58,823 nucleotides of DNA, taken from the NCBI GenBank assembly GCA_021813585.1, contig JAKAJV010000096.1, positions 1 to 58,823 of the forward strand. Direction: 5' to 3'. The stretch's first letter is position 1. Each line of letters opens with the position of its first letter. The stretch comes from Bacteroidota bacterium. Its GTDB lineage: Bacteria; Bacteroidota; Ignavibacteria; Ignavibacteriales; Ignavibacteriaceae. The notes under the pieces were generated by a model. That model ran no database searches. It worked only from the letters and a program-made list of their open reading frames with translations, and was not told the origin of the DNA. This document shows, one piece after another, positions 38,825-58,823 of the stretch. The translations under genes and the position numbers were made by a program.

Positions 38825-39979
38825 TTATCTTTTAAAAAATTCATTAGTCATTTTGTCCCAATTTGTATCGTCGAATTTTTCGAATTCACCTACATACAGC
38901 TCGTCACCGGCGGCTGCAGCCGTGTCTTCATGAGTCGATTTTTTCTTCAGCTCGATAAATTTATCCAGCTCTGCCTGGTAAAAATTAACTGCCGCATTGC
39001 CTACGCTCAAATCCTTTAATACCTTGTCAAGGTCTTCGGCGTCTACTATGCAGAACCAGTTTGGTCCGTAAGGTGTAACATTAAGCGGCTCAAGGTTATT
39101 TTGAAGCACCGTGTTTATTCTTGTTACCTTTCCGGAGATAGGTGAATTAAAAGTAGCCGCTCTCTTTTTTTGTTTAATTGTGAACAAAGGCTGACCGGCG
39201 GATATTGTCATCCCCAGGTTCGGCAGCTCGATAGAATCTATCTTGCCGATTAATTTCCTGGCGAAATCATCAATCCCAATTTTAACCGCGCCGTCCTGTT
39301 CCATGCTTGCCCAGCAGTGGCCTTTCGAGATGAACACTCCGCCCGGGATTGCAAACTCATAAGTTCTAAAATGCTTCGACTCGGTTAAGTGAGTGATATG
39401 CACCTTCGGCTTTAGCTGCTTCTGAATCCTGTCCGTTCTTCTAATAAGAATTTTCTTGACAAAATCCAGCAGCTCGTCTTCGGTAAAAGGCTTTTGCACG
39501 TAATCCATTGCACCGAACTTCATACATTCAACCGCGGTTTCAACGGTTGCAAAGCCCGTAATAATTACAACATCAATATCCGGCCTTAAGTGCTTTACCG
39601 ATTTTGTAACTTCCACACCGTCCATTACCGGCATTTTAAGATCGGTAAATACAAAGTCGTAATGGTGCATCTGAATTAGGCCCAGGGCTTCTTTTCCGTT
39701 CTCAACGGTATCAACGCTGTATCCGTCCAATACAAGAATTTTTCTAAAGCTGTCAAGTATAACAGGCTCGTCGTCTACGCAAAGGATTTTAGCTTTCGGA
39801 TTTTCAACCTCTACGCGTTTTAAAGATTTTGCCTCACGTGAAAAATCCAGATTAAGGCTTACATTCAAAGCAGCCTCACGGTCTTTCCTCAATTGCTTTT
39901 CCTTAATGGATTTTCCGAAATATCTTATTAGAATATCCGCGATGACAAATAATATAACTGCTATAATAAGTAATGGCAT
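38825..39979 (-). CDS. Membrane-anchored response regulator fused to a GcvH-like domain
   Basis: 384 residues. A TM helix (about 3-20) is followed by a charged linker, a receiver domain (about 63-180; acidic VDDEP, phospho-Asp113 in VFTDLKMPV, Lys in YVQKPFTE) and a GcvH-like barrel-sandwich domain (about 213-315) with the H-protein landmarks H-C-W-A, VKIGIDDFARKLIGKIDSIE, LPNLG, SPISGKVTRIN and PYGPNWFCIV. By alignment to the usual S-P-x-S-G landmark, Lys272 falls where GcvH carries the lipoyl lysine, but the surrounding motif (E-S-V-K) is not conserved. Tail of about 70 residues is acidic and unassigned. RBS AAGGAG precedes the ATG. Family role is unknown; a signal-dependent partner-binding domain is an inference. 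Confidence 0.88.
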   Translation of the reverse strand: MPLLIIAVILFVIADILIRYFGKSIKEKQLRKDREAALNVSLNLDFSREAKSLKRVEVENPKAKILCVDDEPVILDSFRKILVLDGYSVDTVENGKEALGLIQMHHYDFVFTDLKMPVMDGVEVTKSVKHLRPDIDVVIITGFATVETAVECMKFGAMDYVQKPFTEDELLDFVKKILIRRTDRIQKQLKPKVHITHLTESKHFRTYEFAIPGGVFISKGHCWASMEQDGAVKIGIDDFARKLIGKIDSIELPNLGMTISAGQPLFTIKQKKRAATFNSPISGKVTRINTVLQNNLEPLNVTPYGPNWFCIVDAEDLDKVLKDLSVGNAAVNFYQAELDKFIELKKKSTHEDTAAAAGDELYVGEFEKFDDTNWDKMTNEFFKR

Positions 39980-40191: not shown

Positions 40192-40998
40192 TTACAGCCT
40201 GTCGGAACTGCAGGGCGTCAGCTGTTTCAGCTCATATTCGCTGTCCGATGGAATAACCCTGTAGAACCAGCCCTTAAAATACGGATCTTTCTCAACCAAG
40301 CTTGTTTCGCTTAAGAGCATCTCATTTTTCTCAATAATCCTTCCGCTTACCGGGCTTAGGACGGAATGATTTAATCCGTCTCTAGTCTTAAGCTGGATGC
40401 AAGAATTTCCTTGTATAATCTCGTCATCAATTTTTAATAAATCAATTTCAATTATTGGATCAATCGTCTTTAAGAATAGATCGGTTACGCCGATCAGTAT
40501 CGATCCCATATTTTCCGGCGATGCCCAGCTAGAATAACCCAGGCGGTAATACTTAGCCGGGCACGGCACATAAATAATGGACGCATCGTTGTTGCCGCTT
40601 GAGTATTTGGCAAGCGACTTCTGAATATCCAGGTACCTTAATCCTCTATAGACAGAATTCGTCAGCTCGTCTGCCGTGAACGGCTTGGGTATAAAATCAA
40701 TTGCGCCGTTATAGAGCGATCTTACAGCGTTCTCAACAGTTGAGAAGCCGGTAGTCATTATTACTGGAGACATGATGTTGTTTTTAACTACCTCATCCAG
40801 AAATTGGAACCCGTCGACTTCGGGCATCATTATGTCGCAGATAATTATTTTATAAACGTTCTTTTTTATTTTTAGGATAGCGTCGGCAGCGTTGATGGAA
40901 GAATCAACTTTTAGTCCTTCGGCCGCGCATATTTTTGAAACGGCGTCTACGATTACCTGTTCATCGTCAATAACCAGTATGTCGAATTGCTTGTTCAT
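40192..40998 (-). CDS. Response regulator fused to a GcvH-like domain lacking the lipoyl lysine
   Basis: 268 residues. Receiver domain 1-120: acidic IDDEQ, phospho-Asp55 in IIICDIMMPEVDG, Lys in FIPKPFTAD. The C-terminal part (about 150-250) follows the H-protein template: Y-S-S-W-A, ILIGVTDLFLKTID, LSPVSGRIIEKN and a closing Y-F-K-G-W-F-Y-R-V. The position seven residues before S-P is Gly, so no lipoyl attachment is expected. Its start overlaps the stop of the upstream haem-motif kinase (ATGA), so this is the cognate receiver. The 212-base gap to the next gene holds no gene. Confidence 0.88.
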   Translation of the reverse strand: MNKQFDILVIDDEQVIVDAVSKICAAEGLKVDSSINAADAILKIKKNVYKIIICDIMMPEVDGFQFLDEVVKNNIMSPVIMTTGFSTVENAVRSLYNGAIDFIPKPFTADELTNSVYRGLRYLDIQKSLAKYSSGNNDASIIYVPCPAKYYRLGYSSWASPENMGSILIGVTDLFLKTIDPIIEIDLLKIDDEIIQGNSCIQLKTRDGLNHSVLSPVSGRIIEKNEMLLSETSLVEKDPYFKGWFYRVIPSDSEYELKQLTPCSSDRL

Positions 40999-46995: not shown

Positions 46996-47427
46996 ATGAA
47001 GGATTTTATATCGTGCTCAAAATATAGTGGTTCTTTCGAAACATATTTTTCTAGGGAACACATATGGATTCGAAAAAATATTTACGGGTTAGTTAAGCTC
47101 GGTGTTGATGACTATGCCGTTCATTCTCTATGTAACCCCGGGGTAAAATTATTAATTTCCGCAGTCTGTTATATAAGAAAGGGCGACAATCTTTTTGAGC
47201 TTGAAGGTAAAAGCGGAAGGCTGACGTTATACTCTCCGATTGATTGTAAGATTGAATTTAGTAATCCGGTTATTACATGGGAAATAATTGATGACCCGTA
47301 TAATGATGATTGGATTGCGCTCGTTTTATTCACCGGATATATCTATGAAAAAAATAATTTGTTTAACCGCGATGAATATACAAAATGGCTGGAGCGGCAG
47401 TATAATCAATCCAAAAGAGTTTTATAA
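46996..47427 (+). CDS. Small GcvH-like domain protein
   Basis: 143 residues. Landmarks of the glycine-cleavage H-protein fold are readable: H-I-W-I near 22-25, GLVKLGVDDYAVHSL, G-D-N-L-F-E-L-E, then Y-S-P-I-D-C-K-I and D-D-W-I-A-L-V. The nearest lysine (Lys72 in ELEGKSG) is eight rather than seven residues before S-P and lacks the E-S-V context, so lipoylation is doubtful. It ends on the base before the next gene begins. There are no gcvT or gcvP genes around, which argues against glycine cleavage. RBS AAAAGGGG is 8 bases ahead of the ATG. Function unknown. Confidence 0.82.
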   Translation: MKDFISCSKYSGSFETYFSREHIWIRKNIYGLVKLGVDDYAVHSLCNPGVKLLISAVCYIRKGDNLFELEGKSGRLTLYSPIDCKIEFSNPVITWEIIDDPYNDDWIALVLFTGYIYEKNNLFNRDEYTKWLERQYNQSKRVL

Positions 47428-52542: not shown

Positions 52543-53613
52543 TCAATTTGAATTTTGAACAGTATAATAATCCGCAATAATTTCTTCAACTCTTTCATAA
52601 AAATAAAATACTTGCGGAGAAAACTCTTTTACCGGAATTCTTTTTAATTCTGAAATCAGCCAGCTTGCTAATTTTGGTGCCGCATCTATATACTTCCCGG
52701 AAAATGCAATCGCATCAAATCCGTCCATCGCAGCTAAAGCAGAACCGCAAGAAAGTAAGATTTTATATTTGAAAATCCGGGATGCTTTTTTATTATTCTC
52801 TTCATCTTCAAAAATATCGCTAATGGAAGTTCGTTTTCCTGCTATAGCAGATAATCCGCTTTTTTTAGTAATGATTTCATTTATCGTTTCTGCGCCAAGC
52901 TTTTTCTTTTCTTCAATCAGTATTATAATTCCCGGGTCCAGTTCTCCACATGTTGTATCGCCGGGAATGCCTTCTACCGGCGTTGCCCCGCTCGATATCA
53001 TTACCGGTTTACCGTTTATAATTGCCGCAACTTCCGGAACAGGGTCCAGACAAATAGAAATAATCTTTTTAGCACGCCTATTTTTATCCCTCATTTTTTC
53101 AATTACAGCTTTGTGAGTTAAGCCGTTGTAGCCAAATCTTCTAATTTCCATTTTCATTAAATTATTATCCAGCGCATACAACTGCTCTCGTGCGGGCAGC
53201 TCTGAAAAAAAAGCAGTTTCAAAGAATAATTTTATCTCCGTTGCAGGAGATATTCCGTTTATTACTTCAATTAATTTTATTACTGCAGAAATATCAAGTG
53301 GCGACAGCCGGATAAGCTTTTCCAATTTGCTCAGAGTAGAATTATCATAAACCGCAACATCCTTAAATAAATTTCCGCCATACAATACTCTTATAGCAGC
53401 AGAAGCCGGTTTGAAATTGTTTATCAAATGTATGATTTCATTTTTTGAGCTAACCGGACTTCTAAATCTTACTCTCCCGCTTGATAGTAGTTCATACTTT
53501 CTGTTTCCTTTCCCGGAAGGCATAGAAGCATCCGTTGAGCAATTAGGACAAATATTAAATACAAAATATTTTATAAAAAAATTCTCTGGGATAAAAACAA
53601 TTAAACTTTTCAT
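52543..53613 (-). CDS. Acetate kinase-like paralogue, probably catalytically dead
   Basis: 356 residues; clear family membership from FFETAFFSELP, IRRFGYNGLTH, ISSGATPVEGIPG, CGELDPGIIIL and GLSAIAGKRTSISDI, each aligned to an AckA block. However, key positions are changed: the N-terminal N-x-G-S-S-S-x-K block reads IPENFFIKY; the D of FDTAFH is E, the following His is Phe; GHGTSH His is Asn (GYNGLTH); CHLGNG is ICLDPV; the Arg of TRSGDxDP is Thr (TTCGELDP); FTGGIGEN is absent; and the C-terminal TNEE block is missing. It would bind neither acetate nor ATP normally. Positions correspond to Asn7, Asp148, His180 and Arg241 in Methanosarcina Ack numbering. It sits 3 bases behind true acetate kinase, with its own RBS GGAGCTAATAA. 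Confidence 0.85.
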   Translation of the reverse strand: MKSLIVFIPENFFIKYFVFNICPNCSTDASMPSGKGNRKYELLSSGRVRFRSPVSSKNEIIHLINNFKPASAAIRVLYGGNLFKDVAVYDNSTLSKLEKLIRLSPLDISAVIKLIEVINGISPATEIKLFFETAFFSELPAREQLYALDNNLMKMEIRRFGYNGLTHKAVIEKMRDKNRRAKKIISICLDPVPEVAAIINGKPVMISSGATPVEGIPGDTTCGELDPGIIILIEEKKKLGAETINEIITKKSGLSAIAGKRTSISDIFEDEENNKKASRIFKYKILLSCGSALAAMDGFDAIAFSGKYIDAAPKLASWLISELKRIPVKEFSPQVFYFYERVEEIIADYYTVQNSN

Positions 53614-53616
53614 TTA

Positions 53617-54837
53617 TTAGCTCCGGTAATCTTTCTCTGCAAGCAAAGACTCATGCCTAAGAAGCTGATACGCCCTTTTTGCAATTGACAATTCTTCATT
53701 TGTTTTAACGACTATAATACGGATTTTACTTTCAGGCGGCGAAACGTCGCACGGGTAGCTTTCAGCATGCCTGTTTTTCATTTCGTCTAATTTTATTCCG
53801 AAGAAGTCCATATCGCTGCAGACTAATTTACGTACTAGCGGAACGGTTTCTCCAATTGTATCTGTAAAAATTATTGCATCAACTCTTCCCAATAAGGCCA
53901 GATAAGAACCTAAATACTTTTTAATCCTCCATAAATAAATTTCAAAAGTAATCTCGGATTTTGCGTCGTTATCTTTTGCTCTAATTATATCTCTTATATC
54001 CGATGAAATGCCTGACAGGCCAAGCACGCCGCTTTTCTTATTTAATATTTTATTTACTTTTAAAAAATCTCCTTCTTCATAAGCAAGCATTTTTAATAAA
54101 ACCGCAGGGTCTAAATTCCCGCAGCGGGTGCTCATAACTAAGCCTTGGAGCGGCGAAAACCCCATTGAATTATCGATCGACTTCCCTTCTTTTATTGCAC
54201 ATAAGCTTGCGCCGCCGCTTCCTAAGTGGCAGCTTACAGCATTAAATTTTTCAACGGGAATATTTAAATAATCCGCTGCTTCTTCTGAAACAAATTGATG
54301 GCTGATTCCATGAAAACCGTATTTTCTTATGCCTAATTCTTCACAAAGCTTTTTAGGAAGAGCGTAGGTATAAGCATAATCCGGAATAGTTGAATGAAAT
54401 GAAGTATCAAGAATTATTGCCTGCGGCACTTCAGGACATTTTTCTTTGCATGCTTTAATAACTTCAATAATCGGAGGGTTGTGAATTGGTGCAAGCTCTT
54501 TTAAATCCTCTAAAAATGCGAAAGACGCCTCGTCCAATAATGCATCCTTTCCAATTTCTTTTGAGCCTTTAACCAGCCGGTGCGCAAAAATGTCCGGCTT
54601 TGCATAACCTCTCTCTTCAACAATTTTCATCACTTCAGAAAATGCCTCAAGGTGATTTTTTATACTCTCTACAAAAATTTCCTTGCCGCCGTCGGCCTCG
54701 TGAATTATTTGCGAAGGCTTCGCTGTCCTAGAAGCTATTCTTTGAACCTCGCCACCGAATAATTCTTTTTCAGAAGGCATGGAAATCATTTTATATTTCA
54801 AGGACGAACTTCCGCAATTAAAAACAAATATATTCAT
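53617..54837 (-). CDS. ackA: Acetate kinase
   Basis: 406 residues. It interconverts acetate + ATP and acetyl phosphate + ADP. Family blocks: FVFNCGSSSLKYK, FAHRLVKGSKEIG, LAPIHNPP, ILDTSFHSTIPDYAY, YGFHGISH, CHLGSGGASLCAI, MGFSPLQGLVMSTRCGNLDP, GLSGISSDIRD, IIFTDTIGETVPLVR and the C-terminal TNEELSIAK. Catalytic residues corresponding to Asn7, Arg91, Asp148, His180 and Arg241 are kept. The GGIGEN block reads DTIGET, a minor deviation. RBS AAAGGA is directly before the ATG. Second of three genes: M20 hydrolase, ackA, decayed paralogue. No phosphotransacetylase gene is present in the window. Confidence 0.95.
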   Translation of the reverse strand: MNIFVFNCGSSSLKYKMISMPSEKELFGGEVQRIASRTAKPSQIIHEADGGKEIFVESIKNHLEAFSEVMKIVEERGYAKPDIFAHRLVKGSKEIGKDALLDEASFAFLEDLKELAPIHNPPIIEVIKACKEKCPEVPQAIILDTSFHSTIPDYAYTYALPKKLCEELGIRKYGFHGISHQFVSEEAADYLNIPVEKFNAVSCHLGSGGASLCAIKEGKSIDNSMGFSPLQGLVMSTRCGNLDPAVLLKMLAYEEGDFLKVNKILNKKSGVLGLSGISSDIRDIIRAKDNDAKSEITFEIYLWRIKKYLGSYLALLGRVDAIIFTDTIGETVPLVRKLVCSDMDFFGIKLDEMKNRHAESYPCDVSPPESKIRIIVVKTNEELSIAKRAYQLLRHESLLAEKDYRS

Positions 54838-54864: not shown

Positions 54865-56097
54865 TTAAAAATCCAAATCGGATGTCCAGCCGAACACCGG
54901 AATTCCGACAAGATTATGAATTATAGAAGCAGTGCCTAAAATGCCTTCAACCATATTATCTATCTCTACATATTCGCCTGCTGTATGAACAACATTTTCG
55001 TCTCCGGGTCCGTAGCCGATTGTAGGAATATTAAATCTTTTTGTAAGAATGCTTCCTGCAGTTCCCATACCGATTCTAGGCAGCCGCCATTTTCCGGGAA
55101 CTGTTTTACACTTTGCAGATGATAAAGCCTGTCGCGCTCTATCCATCAAAGGGGAAAAGGGGCTTGTCTCCCAGGCATTGCTTAAATATCTAACTTGCAC
55201 GCTGTCTCCGTTTGCTAATTTTTGAATCTCTTCGCGAAGCTTTATGTCCAGGTTTATAGATTTTTTTTCTTTAACATTTTGAAGGGTAATATCCTTAATA
55301 TTTTCTATAAGAACGCCGGTGTCCTCATCTTTGTATAATCTTCTATTTAGGAGTATTCTTGCGTCCTGGTAATCGTTATAAAATTCCGGCTGGTGGACGC
55401 TCATAAAATCTTCGCTGCCGTTTATTTTATTTGCTTTGCCGGCATTGTGAAGATTTTGGTAGACCGCATTGGCCGCATTTTTTAGAAAGTTTGGATTTGG
55501 AGAATCCATACCGATTGTAAACCCTGCCCAGCCATCATGCCCATAAAACAGACCGAGGTCGGTAGGCTCGCCGAGTATTACGTAATCAACTTTAATTTTC
55601 ATATCGGCAAGAGTTTTGGAAATTAAATGCTGCACTCCTAAGCTCAATCCGTTTTCTTCAGAAACTGTGGCGGCAACAATTACGTTTCCTCTTAACGGGA
55701 TTAATGCACGGTGCAACAGCATATGAGCAGCATATATTTGAACAGCCAATCCGCTCTTACAATCAGAGCTTCCCACGCCGTAAATTCTCCCGTCTTTAAT
55801 TTTACCCGAATATGGCGAACCTTCCCAGCCGGGTGCATTTTCATCAGGCAGTACCGTATCGATGTGGCTGTTCAGCAGCAGAGTTGGTCCGTTTTCATAT
55901 CCGTAAAGAATGCCGAAGACATTGCCCAAATCATCTGTAATTACTTTGTCATATCCAAGCTCTTTCATTTTTTCCTCAACTAGCCTTGCAGCATACTTTT
56001 CATCGTAGCTAATACTTGGAGTGCGTACAAGCTCCGCAGTAAACGCCGAAGCTTTCTGCCTTAAATTCTCTGCATGTTCTTTTAATAACGTGTACAT
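54865..56097 (-). CDS. M20-family zinc hydrolase (YgeY/ArgE-like)
   Basis: 410 residues. The M20 peptidase/deacylase fold is supported by LLNSHIDTVLPDENAPGW, the aspartate bridging the metals in GVGSSDCKSGLAV, the general-base glutamates in VSEENG, and late ligands in GPGDENVVHTAGEYVE. Of the M20 members I know, it resembles YgeY, an uncharacterised hydrolase. The dimerisation/lid segment, which usually contains a His-x-Ser-x-Pro, reads FTIGMDSPNPNF, so the lid histidine is missing or displaced. It is the first gene of an operon with ackA, so products that yield acetyl phosphate are plausible, but the substrate is unknown. RBS AAGGAATAAACG. Confidence 0.85.
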   Translation of the reverse strand: MYTLLKEHAENLRQKASAFTAELVRTPSISYDEKYAARLVEEKMKELGYDKVITDDLGNVFGILYGYENGPTLLLNSHIDTVLPDENAPGWEGSPYSGKIKDGRIYGVGSSDCKSGLAVQIYAAHMLLHRALIPLRGNVIVAATVSEENGLSLGVQHLISKTLADMKIKVDYVILGEPTDLGLFYGHDGWAGFTIGMDSPNPNFLKNAANAVYQNLHNAGKANKINGSEDFMSVHQPEFYNDYQDARILLNRRLYKDEDTGVLIENIKDITLQNVKEKKSINLDIKLREEIQKLANGDSVQVRYLSNAWETSPFSPLMDRARQALSSAKCKTVPGKWRLPRIGMGTAGSILTKRFNIPTIGYGPGDENVVHTAGEYVEIDNMVEGILGTASIIHNLVGIPVFGWTSDLDF

Positions 56098-56299
56098 CGT
56101 TTATTCCTTTTTTAATTATTATTTGAAAATTTCTGTTTACTCATTAAGCTCTTGGAGTAATGGAGTATTGTCCGAAGGACTTCTCCGTAGGAATAATGGA
56201 GTAAGATAAATTTTATTCCATTCCTTAAAGCTTTTGAATAGCTGCAAGAATGTCTCAAAAGCTGTACCAGGTTAAAAACTTTAATAGTTATCTATTTTA

Positions 56300-56372
56300 C
56301 TGCAAATCTGCATTGGCTGTAAATTTACAGTTTTGTAATTTGCAATGTATGTTTTGCAAAATGCAGTGAATT
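56300..56372. promoter_or_regulatory. Likely operator region of the V4R activator/M20-ackA divergent pair
   Basis: Dense short symmetry: CTGTAAATTTACAG (perfect 14-base palindrome, 56317-56330), TTTTGCAAAA (perfect, 56352-56361) and several TTTGCAA/TGCAAAT half-sites (TGCAAATCTGCA, TTTGCAATG). Such repeated half-sites next to an enhancer-binding regulator suggest its own binding sites. No convincing sigma-54 promoter could be read on either strand. Confidence 0.4.
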
Positions 56373-57989
56373 ATGAAAGCCAAAGATTTAAGATTAGAAG
56401 AGATATTTAATTTTTCAGAAGGAACTTTAACGCTGAAAGGGCGCGAAGTTGTTATCCATAGCCTTCACGCATTCGCATTGTTCCGTAAAGACATAATCGG
56501 CTCAACAGAAATTGCACATGCGCGCAGTATACTTACCCGGTTCGGATACTTTCAGGGACAAGCCGATGCCTCTGTTTTAATAAATAATTTTAAATGGGAA
56601 AGTAAAACGGAATTGATTAAAGCCGGATGCAGGCTTCATTCTTTGGAAGGCATCGCTAAAGATATTGTGAACAAACTCGAATACGATGAGAATTCTGGTA
56701 AGTTTTACATGGAGCTTAGCTGGCACGATTCTAAAGAAGCTGAGGAACATCTTTTTACTTTGGGCAAATCAGCTAATCCGGTCTGCTGGATTTTGAGCGG
56801 CTATTTCAGCGGGTTTATTTCGCTGTCAATAAATAAGGATGTTTATTTCATTGAACAATCCTGCAAAGCCCAAGGCAACACTATTTGTAATGCCATCGGA
56901 AAAGATATTAAATCCTGGGGCGAAGAAATAAATCCATACATGGAATACTTCAAGGTCACCGATATAAAATCAAAAATAGATAAGCTTAACGGACAGCTGA
57001 AACGAAAAGCATATCTATTAAAAAAATATGAAAAAGAAATAGAAGCGCTTTTTACCGTAACAAATCCCACCTTCGTGGAGATACACAGCGAAGCTTATAA
57101 ACGTATTCTAAATATCGCCAACAAAGTTGCGCCCTTTGACTCTACGGTTTTAATTACCGGCGAAACTGGTGTCGGAAAAGAAGTGCTTGCTAAATATATT
57201 CATAAAATTTCTGCACGCACTCAAGGCAAATTTATTGGAATAAATTGCGGAGCTCTGCCAGAGACACTTCTTGAAAGCGAGCTTTTCGGCCATGCTGTAG
57301 GCGCGTTTACTGGCGCAGTAAAAGAAAGAATAGGATTGTTTGAAACTGCGAGTAAAGGAACAATCTTTCTTGATGAGATTGGCGAAGTTGGCTTAGCAAT
57401 GCAATTAAAAATTTTGCGCGTTTTACAGGAACATGAAATTCTGCGTATCGGAGAAAGTATTCCGCGCAAAGTTGATATAAGAATAATTGCAGCTACTAAC
57501 AAAGATTTGAAGCAGCTTATTAAAGAAGGAAAATTTAGAGAAGACCTTTATTACCGCTTGAGCGTAATGGAATTGAAAGTTCCTCCGCTACGCGAGCGCA
57601 AAGAAGATATATTGCCCCTGACGAGGTTTTTTGTCGACCAGCTTACAAAAAAATTAAAGGTACAAAATCTACATATAGATTCTTCATGCATTGAATATTT
57701 GCAGGAATACTCATGGCCCGGCAATGTTAGGGAATTACAAAATGTTATAGAGCGGGCAGCAATACTTTGCAGCGATGGTAAAATTTTGCCGCATCATCTT
57801 CCAAACACAATCATGAACAATTCAGACAAAACATTCGAATCGATTTTAAGGGAGAATGCAACTCTGGAACAAATTGAGCAGGCATACATCGAGCATATTT
57901 TAATCCAAACCGGTGGCAATAAATCCAAAGCTGCAGAAATTCTTGGAATAAATATTTCTACACTCTGGAGAAAAATGAAAAAGATGTAG
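56373..57989 (+). CDS. Sigma-54-dependent activator with XylR_N/V4R sensor domain
   Basis: 538 residues. The N-terminal part (about 1-185) has the layout of XylR/DmpR-like regulators: an activator-of-aromatic-catabolism domain followed by V4R, with CWILSGYFSGF, FIEQSCKAQGN and a second Cys in NTICNAIG, which in this family bind small aromatic ligands or metal. The AAA+ domain (about 235-475) has Walker A GETGVGKE (263-270), an intact GAFTGA (310-315, GHAVGAFTGAVKERIG), Walker B FLDEIGE, and PLRERKEDI. The Fis-type HTH (NKSKAAEILGINISTLWRKM) ends the protein. It is divergent from the M20-ackA operon and likely controls it. No RBS is obvious before ATG 56373. Confidence 0.93.
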   Translation: MKAKDLRLEEIFNFSEGTLTLKGREVVIHSLHAFALFRKDIIGSTEIAHARSILTRFGYFQGQADASVLINNFKWESKTELIKAGCRLHSLEGIAKDIVNKLEYDENSGKFYMELSWHDSKEAEEHLFTLGKSANPVCWILSGYFSGFISLSINKDVYFIEQSCKAQGNTICNAIGKDIKSWGEEINPYMEYFKVTDIKSKIDKLNGQLKRKAYLLKKYEKEIEALFTVTNPTFVEIHSEAYKRILNIANKVAPFDSTVLITGETGVGKEVLAKYIHKISARTQGKFIGINCGALPETLLESELFGHAVGAFTGAVKERIGLFETASKGTIFLDEIGEVGLAMQLKILRVLQEHEILRIGESIPRKVDIRIIAATNKDLKQLIKEGKFREDLYYRLSVMELKVPPLRERKEDILPLTRFFVDQLTKKLKVQNLHIDSSCIEYLQEYSWPGNVRELQNVIERAAILCSDGKILPHHLPNTIMNNSDKTFESILRENATLEQIEQAYIEHILIQTGGNKSKAAEILGINISTLWRKMKKM

Positions 57990-58093
57990 CAGGTTTGTTT
58001 TCTCAGATAATTATTTTCTTCCCCTTGTTTCCGGAAAAATCCAAATTCATGTGTCCGCACATCGCTTGCCGCGGCGAAGCGCAGCAAAGCCGG

Positions 58094-58128: not shown

Positions 58129-58357
58129 TAGCCCCGTCCCCTTCCAAAGGAAGGGGCGTTATCAAACGACTAAGCTATGCTATCGTATCCGATTCTGAAT
58201 TACTGCTTTAAGATTTATATGCTGAACAATTATTACATAACCAAATACAGATAGAATAAATAATTTTAAAATCTTTTAGATTGAATAATGAATTTCGATT
58301 AGAATAATTATTAAGGGTTTGATTCTCCCTTTCCTTTGGGAAGGGCAGGGATGGGCT
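58129..58357. mobile_element. Repeat element inserted between the solo repeat and the CRISPR array
   Basis: Ends are imperfectly inverted: left 58129-58167 (TAGCCCCGTCCCCTTCC then AAAGGAAGGGGC...ATCAAAC) and right 58315-58357 (GTTTGATTCTCCC, CTTTGGGAAGGG, CAGGGATGGGCT) match as reverse complements over about 40 bases with small gaps. The middle is AT-rich without an ORF. A third relative is at 17110-17147. Its right end touches the first array repeat, whose first bases are altered. Confidence 0.5.
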
Positions 58358-58823
58358 GTCCCAATCCACGCGCTCGCACGGAGCGCGACCACATCAAAGC
58401 GCGCAGTCTATTATCAGCAAGCGGTTTCAATCCACGCGCTCGCACGGAGCGCGACCCATTCCAGTTATCTTAAGCTCTTCAACAAGCTTGTTTCAATCCA
58501 CGCGCTCGCACGGAGCGCGACCATCTTCAACAAATATTGCGGGCTTCTGAAGATGTTTCAATCCACGCGCTCGCACGGAGCGCGACAATCTGCTTCTGCG
58601 GAGATGAAGCAGCTTGATGTTTCAATCCACGCGCTCGCACGGAGCGCGACCTCCTTGCTGTAGCATAAACGCCTCTCTATTTGAATGTTTCAATCCACGC
58701 GCTCGCACGGAGCGCGACCTTTGATTATGTTAAGGATAACGGACAGCCTAAAGTTTCAATCCACGCGCTCGCACGGAGCGCGACTCCGGAGCGGCATTTA
58801 GACTAATAGCATGGTAGGAGATC
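58358..58823 (-). CRISPR. CRISPR array, type I-C-like repeat, leader-distal end; continues past the window
   Basis: Seven 32-base repeats start at 58358, 58424, 58490, 58555, 58619, 58687 and 58753, opening GTTTCAATCCACGCGCTCGC and closing GGAGCGCGAC. Spacers are 32 to 36 bases and all different. Read on the minus strand, the repeat begins GTCGCGCTCC, has a 6-base CGCGCT/AGCGCG stem and ends in ATTGAAAC, the type I-C handle pattern. The first repeat on the left is altered at its start (GTCCC for GTTTC), as expected of the leader-distal repeat, so transcription runs leftward from a leader beyond the right edge. After the last visible repeat 39 bases of the next spacer and flank are seen. No cas gene is in the window. 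Confidence 0.97.

Follow-up and report, generated by a model that had tools for sequence, protein, structure and literature searches.

An acetate kinase gene in the genome of an Ignavibacteriaceae bacterium is followed directly by a second gene of the same family whose product lacks catalytic residues while its reading frame stays open. What is such a protein retained for, and what kind of kinase is its neighbor? We name the upstream protein AckB and the downstream protein AckC; both names are coined in this analysis (Table 1). The stretch analyzed, here called the window, comprises 58,823 nucleotides. A first-pass annotation of it had pointed out a 3-base gap between the two genes, the 356 residues of the paralogue and an open frame with its own ribosome binding site. 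All this is borne out by the coordinates of the reading frames and by a GGAG motif 7 nt 5′ of the ATG of AckC, within the last codons of AckB. Both proteins match the Pfam family PF00871 (AckC 140 bits, AckB 379 bits, gathering cut-off 22). The TIGR00016 model for acetate/propionate kinases (cut-off 293.4 bits) accepts AckB with 386 bits and leaves AckC outside with 138 bits. The upstream gene had been annotated as ackA, and this assignment has to be revised. The genome (4.54 Mb, 142 contigs) contains three matches to PF00871, namely AckB, AckC and a standard ackA on a separate contig (G000:C14, 525 bits). Thus, AckB and AckC form an extra pair and are not a housekeeping gene plus its copy. 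AckB is 40% identical to the AckA of its own genome and represents a divergent type in which the PHOSPHATE2 and ADENOSINE loops are altered.

Table 1. Features of the acetokinase locus (positions in the window)
Feature	Position	Strand	Evidence
AckC, catalytically degenerate acetokinase paralogue, 356 aa	52543..53613	-	ORF; PF00871 140 bits; residue table; dN/dS
AckB, acetate kinase of the PPi-type clade, 406 aa (HLGSGGAS, FTDTIGET)	53617..54837	-	ORF; signatures; trees
M20 family (YgeY-like) hydrolase, 410 aa, first operon gene	54865..56097	-	PF01546 91 bits; kept in 8/8 full loci
Sigma-54-like promoter candidate CTGGTACAGCTTTTGAG, 89 bp after element TTGCAAAACATACATTGCAAATTAC	56254..56270	-	Spacing 87-90 bp in 8/8
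Conserved intergenic element TTGCAAAACATACATTGCAAATTAC, candidate upstream activator site	56335..56359	-	Alignment and pattern in 8/8 intergenic regions
XylR_N-V4R-sigma-54 activator, Fis-type HTH, 538 aa, divergent	56373..57989	+	Pfam; kept in 8/8 full loci

We searched for AckC in genomes of increasing distance. Among 59 relatives, 56 matched the AckC query. A genome of the same genus (G001) gave 507 bits at 66% identity, and the next match had 124 bits. In G001, AckC lies directly behind an AckB which is 82-83% identical to that of the window. An AckC profile run against 391 genomes of the class retrieved nine genomes with at least 290 bits, followed by a drop to 134 bits. These are the own genome, G001 and seven genomes of the genus g67, which belongs to another family. 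AckC is present in 7 of 20 genomes from the order of G163, all of them g67 (7 of the 13 genomes of this genus there). Of 395 genomes sampled from the phylum, only the own genome and G623 passed an E value of 1e-45. We rejected the match in G623 (158 bits) as an AckC, as it is a kinase of 407 residues with the motifs HLGNGSS and FTAGIGEN which groups with the canonical ones. The ninth genome, G173, carries a truncated copy. Relative to G169, a deletion of about 4.3 kb removed the M20 hydrolase gene and AckB, so that the activator gene is fused in its 3′ part with codon 84 of AckC across a 7-base overlap (L070:7872-9012); the remnant is open over 282 codons. G173 is a draft genome and its deletion could be an assembly error. 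This remnant is the sole AckC that we found without an AckB. Three scans of viral contigs yielded no relative.

The genome G075, which belongs to g67 and does not have the pair described so far, contains a second type. An AckB-like kinase (AckB′, motifs HLGTGGSS and FTDDIGLH) is overlapped by a degenerate paralogue of 362 residues (AckC′), and after AckC′ follows a divergent FolE2-like gene, a relative of GTP cyclohydrolase (L120:8056-8991; PF02649, 80 bits). G379, from another family, has AckB′ and AckC′ in the same order and then a FolE2-like frame (L137:4526-5020) recognized by eye. No M20 or activator neighbors were found within the fetched stretch of the type-2 loci. The two AckC′ are 41% identical to each other, and between that of G075 and AckC the identity is 30% over 209 residues. 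For AckB′ of G379 the best PDB match is the Entamoeba acetate kinase EhACK (4h0o) with 341 bits, versus 297 bits for the next. Within the genomes searched AckC′ is rare: it stands out in two of the 391 class genomes (816 and 291 bits, next 168), in one of the 395 genomes of the phylum sample (G075) and in one of 98 genomes from the order of G379 (G379 itself). A search of plasmids with AckB′ gave 380 records, all below 60% identity, with the best 10 of the 380 at 38-40%; where annotated, the matches listed are called acetate or acetate/propionate kinase.

Every full-length AckC or AckC′ that we found (10 of 10) is located directly behind an AckB or AckB′. In the reverse direction, AckB without AckC was sought directly in the 59 relatives and, through family matches, in the 20 genomes from the order of G163. 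All kinases with AckB-type loops seen there or fetched (eight AckB, two AckB′) have an AckC or AckC′ behind them. The class and phylum searches started from AckC and AckC′ queries, and hence the strictness of the pairing may be overstated.

The catalytic residues of AckB are largely in place. Asn7, Ser10, Ser12, Lys14, Arg91, His123, Asp148, His180, Arg241 and Glu384 are kept in all eight sequences. Family PF00871 is common to AckB and the canonical enzymes from Methanosarcina thermophila, Thermotoga maritima and the own genome, but the donor loops of AckB are altered throughout, with an inserted glycine in HLGSGGAS, N211S, G239S, A330D, G331T and Ser or Thr for N335 (8/8 each). Among characterized acetate kinases EhACK is described as the exception which uses Pi/PPi (PMC5517563). 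Both sequence signatures published for this type, a second glycine in PHOSPHATE2 and an aspartate (D330) beside a residue 331 other than glycine (T331), are found in all eight AckB. Metagenome entries aside, PMC5517563 gives four Entamoeba and four Anaerolineaceae sequences as the only putative acetate kinases with the second glycine and the aspartate. As of 2017 the bacterial relatives of EhACK comprised these four and some digester metagenomes, with donor specificity not known (PMC5517563). EhACK and the Anaerolineaceae set of PMC5517563 share with AckB the second glycine, the aspartate of the ADENOSINE loop, Ser239 and Ser or Thr at 211, whereas AckB alone has Thr at 331, and its assignment to the PPi type is made from sequence.

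Phylogenetic trees agree with these signatures. These trees contained fewer canonical and paralogue rows than our first, larger tree. When the AckC rows were omitted, the eight AckB, the two AckB′ and EhACK separated from 19 other acetokinases with support of 98/100, and EhACK was placed beside AckB′ in a clade of three rows (100/99). In this tree EhACK nests within the AckB′ rows, but it is a long branch and thus its exact place among them is unsure. The clade of AckB, AckB′ and EhACK persisted when the three signature stretches were removed (94/91), when the AckC rows were included (94/86) and when one AckC set was left out (74/64 or 92/80). It was present in the best tree every time and was starred only in the 98/100 tree. 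In the tree with the AckC rows, all AckB and AckC are set apart from the rest with 94/92. AckB is very probably kin of the Entamoeba PPi-acetate kinase, and we slightly favor the view that it uses Pi/PPi itself.

The strongest alternative, which we regard as possible but doubtful, is that AckB is an acyl kinase dependent on ATP or another NTP and acting on a special acid. In that case the altered loops would point to another choice of nucleotide, and AckC could be the partner of AckB all the same. AckB indeed matches the structures of ATP-type enzymes better than EhACK (334 vs 248 bits in a plain search, 387 vs 303 bits with a profile). Furthermore, its Thr331 corresponds neither to the Gln of the Entamoeba sequences nor to the Asp of the Anaerolineaceae set, and whether the latter are PPi-dependent, ATP-dependent or neither is left open in PMC5517563. 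Against this alternative stand the mutants Asn211Ser and Gly239Ser of the M. thermophila enzyme, which each lost ATP activity about 200-fold (from 883 to 4.4 and 4.6) with the donor class unchanged (PMC4390882). AckB carries both replacements together with the inserted glycine and the aspartate in 8/8, and it belongs to the clade of EhACK.

The type-1 pair is part of a conserved cassette. In the eight full loci the order is a divergent activator gene, the M20 hydrolase gene, AckB and AckC; the outer neighbors vary, with some common to close relatives. The distance between AckB and AckC is +3 in the window, +11 in G001 and -29 in four genomes; the remaining two have -4 and +4. In the M20 protein H78, D80, D112, E147, E177 and H371, which we take to be the metal ligands and catalytic residues of this family, are invariant in 8/8 and E148 is kept in 7/8 (Gly in G152). 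With 182 bits the protein stays below the cut-off of the model for the selenium-linked YgeY hydrolase (NF009555, 321 bits). The activator exceeds the cut-offs (in brackets) for XylR_N with 68 bits (23), V4R with 38 bits (31), the sigma-54 interaction domain with 229 bits (20) and HTH_8 with 59 bits (22). It thus has the domains XylR_N, V4R, Sigma54_activat and a Fis-type HTH in common with activators of the XylR/DmpR/MobR type, but here it stands beside a hydrolase-kinase operon, and it reaches 387 bits in the MobR model where the cut-off is 999 bits.

Between the divergent genes we observed a conserved element and, downstream of it, a sigma-54-like promoter candidate. Their spacing is constant in all eight regions although these span from 141 to 275 bp. 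The candidate promoter was picked with the alignment in view and is supported by the alignment and the spacing. Judged by consensus score alone, most of the sites are not significant: 249 of 300 shuffles of the window region are equally good and another site in the window ties with it; the share of such shuffles falls below 5% in only two of the eight regions (6 and 9 of 300).

Recent horizontal transfer of the cassette is unsupported. Between the own genome and G163 the identities are 60% for AckB, 65% for the M20 hydrolase and 69% for the activator, close to the 69% of the canonical AckA. These values would fit a cassette inherited from a distant common ancestor and since lost in places, or else one transferred long ago. 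A role as defense component is likewise unsupported, as none of three proteins submitted to PADLOC matched.

Beyond the activator gene, near the end of the contig, the window contains a CRISPR-like array (58349-58785). A 32-nt core, GTTTCAATCCACGCGCTCGCACGGAGCGCGAC, occurs seven times at a spacing of 64-68 bp, with the first copy imperfect. A degenerate copy of GTTTCAATCCACGCGCTCGCACGGAGCGCGAC lies at 58085, and the reading frame 58319-58663 is a translation of the array.

What is left of the active site in AckC? We compiled a residue table from an alignment of 47 rows, numbered according to the M. thermophila enzyme by way of the AckA of the own genome. It includes eight full-length AckC, and the truncated copy of G173 was excluded from this table and from the trees. 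All eight have lost N7 (Ile or Val), H208 (Cys), N211 (Pro or Ser), R241 (Thr), G331 (Arg or Lys), I332 (Tyr) and E384 (Leu or Val), and S12 is lost in seven. Of the residues that we looked for as marks of an active acetate kinase (Asn7, Arg241, Glu384 and Gly331), all four are thus missing in every row. R91, G95, G96 and P232 are retained in 8/8, L122 and H180 in 7/8, and V93 in a single sequence. D148 and F179 are replaced uniformly, by Glu and by Tyr, and position 123 is His in four sequences and Asp in the other four. Arg91 and Phe179 presumably line the acid site. The changes at V93, F179 and H123 mean that the acid pocket is altered as well. Val93, Leu122 and Pro232 are described as determinants of acetate binding (PMC4390882). 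Judged by these residues, AckC is a protein whose donor side is lost and whose acid side is partly retained and reshaped; compared with canonical AckA it is 33% identical over residues 72-316 and appears catalytically empty. Since the phosphate-side residues Asn7, His208, Asn211 and Arg241 are gone in 8/8 and several residues of the carboxylate pocket are left, binding of a free acid fits better than the binding of acetyl phosphate which had been envisaged earlier. The first-pass annotation had listed Asn7, Asp148, His180, Arg241 and the TNEE block as replaced. For the window copy this is correct (Ile, Glu, Asn and Thr, with the TNEE block gone), but His180 does not belong to the losses of AckC in general, as it is present in 7 of the 8 orthologues and Asn is found solely in the window copy.

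Other divergent acetokinase paralogues (L111-L116, L121 and L123) have Lys at the position of Arg91 in 6/8 and Glu at that of Asp148 in 6/8. One of them, L121 of G117, lies among genes which by eye resemble a microcompartment locus.

We suggest that AckB and AckC together form a two-subunit acyl kinase of the Pi/PPi type in which AckC is a non-catalytic partner that senses a carboxylate. AckB, as the catalytic chain, would convert an acyl phosphate and Pi into a short carboxylic acid and PPi, or the reverse. In the dimer that acetate kinases usually form, AckC would stand in for the second protomer, handling neither nucleotide nor phosphate, and with the retained part of its carboxylate pocket could tune AckB in response to the free acid, as the trypanosome prozyme does. 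The XylR-type activator might switch on the pair together with the M20 hydrolase, which could supply the acid from an amide. For this reading as a whole we consider the chances about even, and on balance we expect AckC to be a physical partner of AckB. The predicted structures do not add to this: the model of AckC, built from four alignment rows, is poor (pLDDT 59), and that of an AckB-AckC read-through fusion is too poor to inform on a complex (pLDDT 32, pTM 0.28). A membrane pyrophosphatase is encoded in the own genome (598 bits) and hence PPi could be put to use. No PPi-type phosphofructokinase was found there, the scores of 117, 75 and 61 bits being far below the cut-off of 588.

Pairs of an active enzyme and a dead paralogue are known for S-adenosylmethionine decarboxylase (AdoMetDC, with its prozyme) and deoxyhypusine synthase of trypanosomes (PMC5201418, PMC3663545). 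The enzymes are different ones, and according to these papers heteromer formation and activation have been measured in the trypanosome pairs, whereas AckB-AckC is known from sequence. The feature common to them, a dead paralogue co-maintained with an active enzyme, was found in 10 of 10 cases here. If our suggestion is true, it would represent bacterial prozyme-style control in acetate metabolism. We found no description of a dead acetate kinase paralogue in the open-licence full text of PMC (subscription papers and preprints lie outside it), and the word "paralog" does not occur in the main text of PMC5517563.

It is also conceivable, although unlikely, that AckC acts on its own as a carboxylate-binding homodimer, for example as a sensor for the activator or the hydrolase. 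The conserved R91, G95, G96 and P232 and a regulator within the cassette would suit such a role. The activator has however sensor domains of its own, XylR_N and V4R, and in type 2 the AckC-type protein again follows an AckB-type kinase, with a FolE2-like gene and without the M20 and activator neighbors in the fetched stretch. Still less probable to us is that AckC has become a new enzyme in which Glu148, Tyr179, Thr241, the basic residue 331 and Tyr332 make up an active site of another kind. In 8/8 each of the five is either invariant or a conservative replacement, and the gene is under strong constraint, but AckC′ does not have them, which leaves the pairing as the only trait common to both types. 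In the residue table AckC′ differs from AckC again at R91, H180, G331 and I332. AckC and AckC′ may have arisen from one duplication or from two. They group with 98/96 in the tree with the AckC rows, but long branches meet there. AU p values are 0.043 for AckC with the type-1 AckB, rising to 0.47 once AckC′ is left out, and 0.15 for AckC′ with AckB′ and EhACK when AckC is left out. The long AckC branches mean that the trees do not fix the number of duplications.

Selection on the pair was computed with NG86 and YN00. Seven AckC pairs were tried, of which four were saturated or nearly so. In the three pairs of lowest dS (L064, L065 and L066; dS 0.5-2.0) the dN/dS was 0.08-0.13 by NG86 and 0.09-0.18 by YN00, as expected for purifying selection. 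For AckB, NG86 gave 0.04-0.07 in the same three pairs; YN00 ran in two of them and yielded 0.05 and 0.09. The comparison of the window with G001 yields 0.07 for AckC, but at a saturated dS of 3.3. Thus, the constraint on AckC is roughly half that on AckB, and AckC evolves about twice as fast. The idea that AckC is a decaying pseudogene open by chance, for which one could cite this faster evolution, the loss of His180 in the window copy alone and the truncated copy in one genome, is hardly credible in view of eight open full-length orthologues with identities to the window copy as low as 42% and a dN/dS of 0.08-0.18, and a fresh pseudogene is ruled out by distribution and selection. The suggestion of a retained role in the first-pass annotation has therefore stood up: AckC is neither confined to the window nor under relaxed selection, the full tandem is present in eight genomes of two families, and AckC is almost certainly a retained functional gene.

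With AckB, the PPi-type group extends to another phylum and to two gene neighborhoods, with a dead paralogue directly behind the kinase each time. The pairing offers a testable handle on donor use, on control and on the origin of the amoebal enzyme. More speculatively, bacterial PPi-type acetate kinases might as a rule be two-subunit enzymes, in which a dead acid-sensing AckC governs how fast or in which direction PPi is formed by the catalytic AckB, and the Entamoeba enzyme might derive from an AckB′ after loss of its partner.

Elsewhere in the window, a small protein (46996-47427) and the C-terminal parts of two response regulators (40192-40998 and 38825-39979) resemble, by eye, lipoyl domains of the GcvH type. 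A membrane redox complex and histidine kinases that carry CxxCH motifs are encoded nearby.
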